Shown here one piece after another: positions 43,390-46,315 of a stretch of 64,000 bases of DNA (positions within the stretch are counted from its first letter, which is position 1; each line of letters starts with the position of its first letter). This DNA is from Gammaproteobacteria bacterium (GTDB lineage: Bacteria; Pseudomonadota; Gammaproteobacteria; JACCYU01). A program made the position numbers and the translations under genes. The DNA is taken from assembly GCA_013695765.1 (NCBI GenBank), contig JACCZW010000014.1:1-64000 (forward strand). The letters run 5' to 3'. Below the pieces are notes generated by a model, which had not been told where the DNA came from, did no database searches, and worked only from the letters and a program-made list of their open reading frames with translations.

Positions 43390-43521
43390 TCTTGCGTCGC
43401 TGCAGGTGCCGCAGTTGCGGTTCAGTGATTACGCCATTGAAGTTTTTGACAATCGATTGTAATGATGACAACACTTCAGGCGGCGTGTACATAAAATCGG
43501 AGGAAGGGCAAGGAAATAAAG
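43390..43521. other. Gap with AT-rich promoter-like patch before the acs remnant
   Basis: The 132 bp hold no gene. TTGAAG and TAATGA are 17 bases apart (about 43438-43466) and the palindrome CAATCGATTG lies between them. Because the following acs sequence is only a fragment, any promoter here may be a leftover or unrelated. Confidence 0.25.
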
Positions 43522-44096
43522 GGTGCGGGTTCCGGCAACCTGGTCATCAAGCACCCATGGCCCGGTCAGATGCGCACCGTGTATCGTGATCAGGAGCGTT
43601 TCATCGATACCTGTTTCAAGATGTTCCGGGCTGTTACACCAGCGGCGACGGCGCACGCCGAGACGAGGATGGTTACTATTGGATTACCGGCCGCGTGGAC
43701 GATGTCATCAACGTCTCCGGTCACCGGCTCGGCACCGCGGAGGTCGAGAGCGCACTGGTGCAGCACGCCTCCGTCTCCGAAGCGGCGGTGGTCGGCTTTC
43801 CACACGACCAAAAGGGCCAGGGCATCTACGCTTACGTGACTCTGAAGGAGGGCGAAAAAGGTTCGGACGAACTCAAAAAAGAGCTGGTGCAACTCGTGCG
43901 CGACGACATCGGCGCCATCGCCAAGCCGGACGTGATCCAGTGGGCGCCGGGTTTACCCAAGACGCGCTCCGGCAAGATCATGCGTCGGATTCTGCGCAAG
44001 GTCGCGGCCAACGAAGTCGATGCGCTGGGTGATACGTCAACGCTGGCCGAACCGGCGGTGGTGGATGATTTGATTGAGAATCGGGCGAATAAGTAG
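43522..44096 (+). pseudogene. acs: Acetyl-CoA synthetase C-terminal remnant
   Basis: Acetyl-CoA synthetase is about 650 residues; only the last 190 or so remain. Similarity begins abruptly at [20 protein letters not shown] and runs to FKMF (43626), where the frame is lost. It resumes one base off as [39 protein letters not shown] and ends with the acetylated-Lys motif [19 protein letters not shown]. Restoring one C in CC(C)GGG joins the two parts. The ATP-binding N-terminal domain is absent. It is a broken relic; a functional acs must be elsewhere if the cell has one. Confidence 0.88.
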
Positions 44097-44167
44097 CGGG
44101 CAATATTTCTGAGTCTGAGGCTCAGCCGCAGAAGTTAATTCAACGTCAGTTAATGCAGGCTGGAATA

Positions 44168-44488
44168 ATGAAACGCATTATTTTCGCGCTTACTTTGTTC
44201 GCTGGAAATTGTTTCGTTACTCCAGCGGTTGCTGCACAGGGGGTAGTTGTTTACTACGAGTCTGGGTGCGATTACTACATAGTCGAGACGAATCATGGAT
44301 ATGCGCTTCTTGAGTGGTATGGTGGAAACGATCCTAGCGAGGGTGACATTCTGGTCGGGGACTACGAGAGTTACGGCATGGAAGACATCTGGAACCTGAC
44401 GGCCGATGCGGAAACACAAGTCTGGGTCGAAGATTATTGGATGTCTGAAGATAACGTCATCGAAGACTACCATGAACAATGCGACTGA
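44168..44488 (+). CDS. Small secreted protein, unknown function
   Basis: This 106-residue protein has a signal peptide (MKRIIFALTLFAGNCFVTPAVA) and a mature part rich in Tyr, Trp, Asp and Glu (VVVYYESGCDYYIVETNHGY, WYGGNDPSEGDILVGDYESYG, WVEDYW) with two Cys residues that could form one disulphide. I do not know a named family. The AT-richer codon use differs from the core genes and fits acquisition. An in-frame start 15 bases upstream is possible. Confidence 0.72.
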   Translation: MKRIIFALTLFAGNCFVTPAVAAQGVVVYYESGCDYYIVETNHGYALLEWYGGNDPSEGDILVGDYESYGMEDIWNLTADAETQVWVEDYWMSEDNVIEDYHEQCD

Positions 44489-44594
44489 CGTTCTCTAACA
44501 TTCCGCTGTCATCGGACTTTAAGGAAAACTCTCTCTGCATTAGCTGTAGTTGCTGCTTGAAGCTGATTTACTGGGTTAAGCGTCGGGTGTATGT

Positions 44595-44812
44595 GGGGTT
44601 CCGCCCCCGCCGGCGGGTTACTTTCTCTTGCGCGGTCAAGAGAAAGTAACCAAAGAGAAGGCCGCCCGACTGGCGCTTGATCGCTGCGCTGCGCGCCTTT
44701 GACTCGGCGGTCGCCCGACGGCACATCCATGTACCGCAGGCGACGCGCGTGATTCATCACGCGTCCTTCGGCGCTCGGCCAAGGTTTACGGTGCTCGCTA
44801 GCGCCAAACGGG
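44595..44812 (+). repeat. Dispersed-type repeat, left copy of an inverted pair
   Basis: This 218-bp non-coding stretch begins GGGGTTCCGCCCCCGCCGGC, has an inner hairpin TTACTTTCTCTTG...CAAGAGAAAGTAA, and ends at GCTAGCGCCAAACGGG. It reappears inverted at 45534-45752 with most bases identical. The type (GTTACTTT...AAAGTAACC arms, GC-rich body) resembles a repeat I have seen near genes in several proteobacteria. Antisense frames across it are not genes. The rest of the gap 44489-44883 shows nothing else. Confidence 0.85.
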
Positions 44813-44883
44813 AAAGTGGAATGAAAGTGCAGAACATATACTGGGCGTGACATTCGATCGAGCATTAAGAGGGAGGATACTAA

Positions 44884-45478
44884 ATGAAGCACATATTGCT
44901 TACCGCGTTACCGGTATTGATTGCGGGCTGCGCTTCAACGAACATCACGGGCTATTCAGATCCTGCCTACTCAGGCACGGAGTACGACAGTACGGTTGTA
45001 TTTGCCAGCAATCTAGACTTGGAAAAGGCTGCAGATCTGGAGTCATCGATCTGTAACGAATTTAGTGACCGTGGCGTTAGTTGCACTACCTTTCTGTCAC
45101 TTTTCCCGCCAACGCGTGGACATACAATAAGACTCGGTGTTCGGAACTCTGTCCCAGCGCGGTATCGATTCCTTCATCATGCTCACTAGCGGTGGAGACA
45201 ATTCGTCAAGTGAGGTATTCGCCTATCAAGCGTACGGAAATGCTTCCAGTTATGGCGGTTACACCTCAGCTCAAGCGACGGCCGTACCCTTACGATCTTT
45301 CTCCCGCGAAGGCCATATGCGCGTCATCCTGATAGATTCTGCGACTGGTGAGACCGCGTGGTTAGGCGACGCCAAAACCGAGGGACAAGGGATGGTGAAC
45401 GTAACTGACAGCGCATTTCAGTCCAGTTTGGCTGCAGAGGTCGTTGAGGTACTCGCGGATTCTTCCCATTTCCCGTAA
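44884..45478 (+). pseudogene. Lipoprotein gene broken by two frameshifts
   Basis: The frame starts MKHILLTALPVLIAGCAST (lipobox LIAGC) and runs to about FPPTR (45117). It must shift by one base to read WTYNKTR (45117-45137), and by one more to read VFGTLSQRGIDSFIMLTSGG and on to VLADSSHFP at 45478. Each shift equals a one-base loss. Joined, the product would be a lipoprotein of about 197 residues with a Ser/Tyr-rich middle. AGGGAGG lies upstream of the ATG. Its family is unknown to me. It is the only cargo between the two inverted repeats. Confidence 0.7.
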
Positions 45479-45533
45479 GAGGAATTAGCCGCAGACGGAT
45501 AGAGTGCCGAAACGCATCGCACGGCTCAGGTTA

Positions 45534-45752
45534 CCCGTTTGGCGCTAGCGAGCAGCGCAAGCCTTTGGCCGAACGCCGGAGGGCGCGTGATGGATCACGC
45601 GCGTCGCCTGCGGTACAGGGAAGTACCGTCGGGCGACCGCCGAGTCAAAGGCGCGCAGCGCAGCGATTAAGCGCCAGTCGGGCGGCCTTTCTTTTGGTTT
45701 CTTTTCTTTGGCCGAGCAAAGAAAAGTAACCCGCCGGCGGGGGCGGAACCCC
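45534..45752 (-). repeat. Dispersed-type repeat, right copy of an inverted pair
   Basis: This is the reverse complement of the copy at 44595-44812, 219 bp long, starting CCCGTTTGGCGCTAGC and ending GCGGAACCCC. Differences from the left copy cluster in the inner TTACTTTTCTTTG hairpin, where the copy-specific loop differs while pairing is kept, which points to RNA or DNA structure being conserved. It ends eight bases before the start of the mug gene. Confidence 0.85.
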
Positions 45753-45760
45753 GCTCACAT

Positions 45761-46315
45761 ATGTCAATTGAGGCACACACGTTACCGGACTATCTGCGCA
45801 AAAACCTGCGCATCGTATCCATCGGTCTGAACCCGTCGATCATTTCCGCGCGCGCCGGATTTTATTTCGCCAATCCCCGCAACCGCTTCTGGCGGGCATT
45901 GAATGCTTCGGGGCTGGTGCCGGAGCCTTTACTTCCGGGTGTCGCCGCGCAAAAAGTGATGTTCAAGCGATACGACATCGGCTTCACGGATGTGGTCAAG
46001 CGCGCGACGCGTGGGGGTGCTGAATTGCGGGCGGACGATTATCGACAAGGCGCGCTGCTGCTGACCGAAAAACTAATTCGCTATCGGGCGCGCGTGGCGT
46101 GGTTTCACGGCAAGGTCGCGTACGCCCAGTTTCTCAAATACACCATCGGCTCGAAGTCGCCGCCCATCGACTGGGGCATGCAGCCGGCATGTGTGAGTCA
46201 ATCGCGCGTGTTCGTGACGCCCAATCCCAGCCCCGCGAATGCGGCCTTCTCGCTGTCTGTGCTGACCGGGTGGTATAGAGCGCTCGCGCAAGTGGTGCCG
46301 TGTTCCGCCAATTGA
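45761..46315 (+). CDS. mug: Mismatch-specific uracil/thymine DNA glycosylase
   Basis: Mug removes U or T from mismatches with G and ethenocytosine. The 184-residue protein has the motif IVSIGLNPSIISARAGFYFANPRNRFW, where the Asn of GLNP activates water, and the C-terminal VFVTPNPSPANAAFS loop (NPSP-type). Length fits (E. coli 168). The ATG lies eight bases after the inverted repeat, so the normal promoter region has been replaced by the repeat; ACATATGTC gives no clear ribosome binding site. Confidence 0.88.
   Translation: MSIEAHTLPDYLRKNLRIVSIGLNPSIISARAGFYFANPRNRFWRALNASGLVPEPLLPGVAAQKVMFKRYDIGFTDVVKRATRGGAELRADDYRQGALLLTEKLIRYRARVAWFHGKVAYAQFLKYTIGSKSPPIDWGMQPACVSQSRVFVTPNPSPANAAFSLSVLTGWYRALAQVVPCSAN

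Follow-up and report, generated by a model that had tools for sequence, protein, structure and literature searches.

In the window, by which we mean the whole stretch of 64,000 nucleotides that was analysed, two REP-like repeats face each other around one gene and form an interrupted palindrome. On balance, the probable explanation is that such a unit is not a transposon but a site with a hot spot of gene exchange by general recombination at its centre; folding as the cause, and the enzymes at work, are what we infer. Exchange was observed in Burkholderia, and by analogy the window pair may behave in the same manner. Structured REP-like or PIT-like repeats and gene cassettes are known kinds of sequence, and the surprising part is the exchange behaviour. 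An earlier note on this DNA had proposed a mobile cassette; for the repeat family the evidence supports a cassette, and it does not support a mobile unit.

The two arms of the window pair were located by repeat finder and BLAST, the left one (44588–44815, plus strand) also by the covariance model, and the right one (45531–45759) lies on the minus strand, so that the copies, of 218–219 bp, stand head-to-head around a lipoprotein gene. They are 88–89% complementary. BLAST within the genome aligned 44595–44813 (plus) with 45534–45752 (minus) at 89% identity (E 2e-77, far beyond chance), which confirms the near-identical, opposite copies described in the earlier note, and a gapped comparison matched 202 of 234 positions. 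Also as described there, the right copy ends eight bases short of mug (45752 versus 45761). The enclosed gene (44884–45478, plus strand) is indeed a single one, but it is broken by a frameshift: in the open reading frame list, the frame 44884–45189 is carried on in another frame at 45137–45478. An unbroken homologue of 209 amino acids exists in another genome (L250 in G270), in a region free of inverted repeats of at least 25 nt, and no Pfam or NCBIfam family matched the window gene. The slot in the window holds a decaying lipoprotein gene. The GTATGTG/ATATGTG echo between the outer flanks, pointed out earlier, is present, but it is offset by 4 bases, is too short to carry meaning and is no target duplication.

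This pair represents the sole copies found by BLAST in a 3.13-Mb genome that is 99% complete. BLASTN showed that in a congener (G001) the same neighbours enclose another gene, and that positions 43393–45779 of the window have no homology to the corresponding locus (L199), so the whole of this stretch is variable. Concerning a clean empty counterpart of the site, none was present in this congener, which has other genes there. In the window's own lineage no exchange was seen, the comparison being with one congener over a variable region that offers no clean before-and-after pair. Inside the same variable stretch and adjoining the cassette, positions 43695–44096 encode a C-terminal piece of an acyl-CoA synthetase, which looks like a stray gene fragment.

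The exchange itself was followed by searching the joined flanks of a pair from Burkholderia seminalis (L078) in 41 Burkholderia genomes, to which the site is common. The distance between the flanks was about 555–1045 bp in most of them, 2.3–4.5 kb in six and 140–238 bp in four. Of the long interiors, those of four genomes contained PAAR-Tae4 followed by small genes, and the remainder either four proteins of the DUF1120 type or a transposase of the IS256 type (Mutator family). Among the 28 species with complete arms, flanks and arms align, and the interiors fall into 11 unrelated classes. The flank tree requires four changes in the PAAR-Tae4 cargo, which belongs to the type VI secretion system (T6SS), and well-supported branches force every one of them. 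The loci L229–L248 and L251–L267 are one orthologous site, and the four species with PAAR-Tae4 genes are scattered on that tree. In two sister species (L233 and L252, support 100/99) the arms are mostly 88–100% identical as far as their inner ends, and exactly there the similarity breaks: one interior is a 2.7-kb PAAR-Tae4 cassette and the other an unrelated 182-bp spacer, which is also present in the further relatives of its bearer.

The orientation of the interior changes as well. Homologous interiors lie opposite with respect to the same flanks in L235 and L259 versus L253, L258 and L260 (local scores of 52–68 when inverted and of about 10 when direct), a difference that can be accounted for by replacement or by inversion in place. 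The Burkholderia arms evolve in concert: in 19 of the 28 species the nearest relative of the left arm is the right arm of the same genome, and the identity over arm segment 75–150 is 0.933 within genomes and 0.827 between them. Two apparently empty sites were considered as pre-insertion sites and rejected, because their outer-arm remnants mark them as deletion scars; L244 has the two outer ends fused, and L243 keeps part of the left one. No outer-arm remnants were found at the site in L245 and L246. As to a dedicated invertase, neither the DNA enclosed by the arms nor the short flanks yielded a recognisable recombinase gene at the Burkholderia loci inspected. Interiors that are exchanged or inverted, and arms that evolve in concert, are in this way recorded for a single site in a single genus. 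With the cargo changing between conserved arms, the description of the unit as a cassette without transposase proved apt.

Each copy of the repeat has features beyond those of a hairpin. In the left arm (plus strand), an outer G+C-rich hairpin (GGGGTTCCGCCCC, 44595–44607, from sequence and DNA fold) precedes the main hairpin (44616–44651; 15-bp stem, 6-nt loop; repeat finder and fold), the purine arm of which is AAGAGAAA (44638–44645). Directly after it comes AAAGAGAA (44652–44659), a mirror repeat of that purine arm and a putative triplex third strand, followed by GGCCGC (44660–44665), a putative pseudoknot strand, to judge by covariation, whose complement is GCGGTC (the loop plus one base, 44632–44637). 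On the minus strand, the right arm has its main hairpin at 45696–45731 with the purine arm AAAGAAAA, the mirror repeat AAAAGAAA at 45688–45695 as putative third strand, and GGCCGC at 45682–45687 as putative pseudoknot strand. The inner hairpins differ between the two copies and their pairing is kept, apart from a single A-A mismatch on the right. The copies differ exactly by a coordinated change in three strands, the purine tract after each hairpin changing together with the stem, a feature that the earlier note had not remarked.

The aligned relatives share the layout: an outer G+C-rich hairpin, then GTTACTTTCTYTTG, a 6-nt loop and CAARAGAAAGTAAC, then CAAAGARAAGGCnnCCC. Within the main stem, 12 of the 14 pairs are changed on both sides somewhere in the alignment, and so are all five pairs between the loop and the downstream GGCnn strand (e.g. 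TCGCC/GGCGA, GTGGCC/GGCCAC, TAGCC/GGCTA and TGTGC/GCACA). The 17 pairs with double changes that support the pseudoknot were reached in none of 500 shuffles, and the whole structure exceeded all 500 on covariation and collapsed when slid. The purine tract following the stem mirrors the purine arm, as in AAGAGAAA...AAAGAGAA, AAAAGAAA...AAAGAAAA, AAAGAAAA...AAAAGAAA and AAGAAAAA...AAAAAGAA. Mirror matches occupied 182 of 218 positions, compared to 152 ± 5 (maximum 171) after shuffling, with perfect mirrors in 19 of 28 distinct strand pairs, and exceeded all 2000 shuffles. The earlier claim that structure rather than sequence is kept thus gains support, and extends to the pseudoknot and to the mirror strand.

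An intrastrand triplex (PIT) requires a mirror third strand, which would here be of the purine motif on the written strand and of the pyrimidine motif (T.A-T, C+.G-C) on the other. A purine/pyrimidine hairpin followed by such a mirror repeat is what was found, and the copies are, judged as sequences, candidates for this fold. By eye and without scoring, the loop of the outer hairpin fits the four bases that precede the main one (TTGC/GCAA, TAGC/GCTA, TGGC/GCCA), a putative second pseudoknot. The mismatches in the stem, nine A-C and no G-T on the written strand and clustered largely at one position, favour the outward-reading strand as the one that would fold; the pseudoknot mismatches point to no single strand, so this lean is confined to the main stem. 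Reading frames that cross the hairpin yield spurious proteins, such as ...MLRQKKVTKEKATP..., in all copies (e.g. L053:3730–3963 and L090:3662–3958), and many genome annotations are likely to list these as hypothetical proteins.

Concerning the distribution of the repeat, a pattern scan of named genomes gave at least 120 loci, mainly in Beta- and Gammaproteobacteria. The search of other genomes proposed in the earlier note turned up many carriers with recurrent inward-facing pairs and different cargos, so the repeat is neither peculiar to the window nor limited to single, randomly oriented copies lacking cargo. A profile run over these listed loci and their relatives counted 48 neighbours within 4 kb, of which 38 were '+-', five '--', four '++' and one '-+', i.e. 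38 inward-facing pairs and one outward-facing pair among the matches listed and relatives. Solo copies are common, 89 of 134 loci showing one copy in the sequence stretch examined. Most paired units measure 450–700 bp and have no gene inside, and in some compact pairs the spacer is merely 8–16 bp. Larger units enclose one to several unrelated genes: toxin-antitoxin modules (HigBA, Phd/ParE, FitA-like antitoxin), two lipoproteins (window and L150), a DUF2441 protein, a weak FG-GAP match, unknown genes and IS3 genes; nothing convincing was found among the cargos as to defence genes. In Rheinheimera (L212:1119–3458) the array + [Phd/ParE] + + [160 aa] - has its cargos separated by copies, resembling a cassette array, and in Neisseriaceae JH1-16 (L211:1347–2399) four copies in the same orientation stand in tandem at a spacing of about 330 bp.

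By covariance model, the genomes searched contained from 3 to 147 copies, counts that may include palindromic self-matches, with high numbers in Silvimonas and Luteimonas. Up to 147 copies per genome imply that some dispersal process also exists, outside the exchange model. The window module matched nothing in plasmid or phage collections. A consensus-like copy matched one record of the plasmid collection, an Ilyobacter chromid, and no phage; that chromid (NC_014633.1, Ilyobacter polytropus), outside the Proteobacteria, has six places resembling the module. Literature open to reading without subscription yielded neither a description of the repeat nor its sequence as text.

Could the arms be the ends of a non-autonomous transposon (a MITE or mobile insertion cassette) served by a transposase in trans and enclosing passenger genes? 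We consider this unlikely. Transposition does reach the module in Methylobacter, where it lies inside IS701-type MITEs with 5-bp duplications (CTGTA in L158, AAGTA in L128 and TACTA in L184), the autonomous IS being present in M. tundripaludum, so ordinary transposition also carries the module along; yet the mobile ends there are those of the IS, and the module occurs singly. These MITEs (L131, L144, L158, L184 and others) measure 316–444 bp and have the ends ACTGATGTTACGC, matched by the IS701-family element at L204:182–1243. The many copies in Silvimonas and Luteimonas also suit a transposon, and so does a Sideroxydans site (L126) that is empty in four congeners (23–43 bp intergenic), but no target duplication is evident at the junctions of that site or in the window, and where the site is filled, several inverted repeats of different kinds are nested. 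Moreover, the pairs have no termini in common, their outer ends differing between lineages, the window genome has one pair alone, and in Burkholderia the pair is fixed and its content moves. On such grounds the word mobile, applied to the unit, is not supported. Nesting was also seen in the genus of G024, where the congener's counterpart of L053 holds another nested palindrome without the module; L053:3661–5305 and L272:622–908 consist of concentric shells of different inverted repeats, of which the congener keeps the outer shells and not the module.

A RAYT/REPIN-type system, in which a Y1 (HUH) transposase recognises folded single-stranded ends, would fit repeats that are folded, inverted and REP-like in a genome (G000) with two Y1 transposase genes. 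It seems quite improbable, since neither gene has a repeat copy nearby and one has different inverted ends of its own, and no Y1 gene was recognised in the inspected pairs; a Y1/RAYT partner was accordingly rejected. The ends in question are a 23-nt inverted repeat, TAGTATAAATAGGGTCAGACACG (L201:7–29 and 800–822, contig C127), unrelated to the window repeat. With somewhat more probability, but still doubtful, the outward strand of the arm could be a functional RNA that ends or protects transcripts, with pairing and cargo as by-products. It would form an RNA pseudoknot with U.A-U triples, a fold known from telomerase RNA and SAM-II. In favour of an RNA, the stem mismatches become G-U on the outward strand, although their count depends largely on one position, and RNA can adopt the pyrimidine triplex open to that strand but not purine-motif triplexes, according to the introduction of PMC4666352. 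Against it, the orientation relative to the flanking genes has no clear preference, so a role as terminator or 3'-UTR judged from gene orientation was discarded, and Rfam gave no known RNA in the window, the one match being RF02421 over the outer end in the Burkholderia pair (L078). Lastly, the repeats could be ordinary intergenic palindromes that enclose the window gene by chance, as most pairs are without a gene and the window genome has a single pair. This is very unlikely, being already disfavoured by the 38:1 inward bias among the matches listed and relatives, by the recurrence of unrelated cargos confined between arms, and by the replacement of interiors at a fixed site.

Exchange at the centre of a resident palindrome could proceed as follows. 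A single-stranded arm would fold into the hairpin, its loop pairing with the downstream strand (pseudoknot) and the mirror third strand lying on the purine/pyrimidine stem (triplex). Folding of the palindrome during replication would lead to replication-linked breaks, most likely through hairpin cleavage by an enzyme of the SbcCD type. Homologous recombination would repair the breaks, using the partner arm, a further copy of the repeat, or DNA that comes in with similar arms, and the outcome would be conversion of the arms, and inversion, deletion or replacement of the centre by other genes, while the arms persist. The published support for this mechanism may be called general. Interrupted palindromes of about 480 bp in the Escherichia coli chromosome form hairpins that are cut to breaks repaired by homologous recombination (PMC4245961), and intrastrand triplex motifs are associated with rearranged loci (PMC4666352).

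More tentatively, and with less than even confidence, it can be proposed that such sites are widespread: resident, recombinase-free triplex-pseudoknot palindromes in which folding makes the centre capture accessory genes (toxin-antitoxin modules, T6SS effector-immunity pairs, lipoproteins) and conversion keeps the arms alike. If so, bacteria would have a further way of gaining genes, for which the unit itself requires no transposase, integrase or phage, and exchange sites could be recognised and listed with one covariance model. The cargo types seen, toxin-antitoxin modules and T6SS effector genes, turn over fast between related bacteria. The repeat would also be a natural, experimentally tractable case in which to ask whether folded repeats such as palindromes and intrastrand triplexes are a cause of gene exchange or simply a mark of it.

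Among the closest known systems are interrupted palindromes that SbcCD cleaves in E. coli (PMC4245961, PMC3315005), which are similarly long, form replication-dependent hairpins and are repaired by homologous recombination; those are engineered constructs, and natural gene exchange at the centre is a proposal of the present analysis. The TM_ECO/BoxC (PIT) elements of Enterobacteria (Holder et al. 2015, PMC4666352) have the same order of Y stem, R stem and mirror R strand, are chromosomal and of many copies, may form inverted pairs and are tied to rearranged loci. They differ in their unrelated sequence, with a 9-nt G/C-rich motif, and the passages of that paper covered here describe no loop-downstream pseudoknot and no gene cassette between inverted copies; by eye, their consensus (CCCTCNCCCN3-6GGGNGAGGGN3GGGNGAGGG) is absent from the AT-rich stem found here. 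REP, BIME and REPIN sequences are likewise short, folded, extragenic, inverted in pairs and numerous, while here a pseudoknot module of about 75 nt sits in an arm of about 220 bp, the pairs bear cargo, and no associated RAYT was found. The Burkholderia predicted sRNA Bp1_684 (RF02421) has a match at either outer end of the Burkholderia pair, covering the outer end and the module start alone, and neither the pairing nor the interior.

Mobile insertion cassettes and cargo-carrying MITEs also have inverted repeats around passenger genes and no transposase inside, but the arms described here are long structured repeats instead of transposon ends, target duplications are missing, and the unit stays while its content changes; terminal inverted repeats in common with an autonomous transposon were found for the solo copies of Methylobacter alone. 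Integron cassettes typically consist of single small genes or toxin-antitoxin modules and recombine through folded single-stranded sequences (attC). In the inspected pairs no integrase gene was recognised, and the direct-repeat arrangement of attC sites was not seen, 38 of the 48 neighbours being '+-' among the matches listed and relatives. The resemblance lies in the single small genes, the toxin-antitoxin modules and the folded sequences; the difference is that an inverted pair takes the place of one attC per cassette, and that the arms remain at the site.
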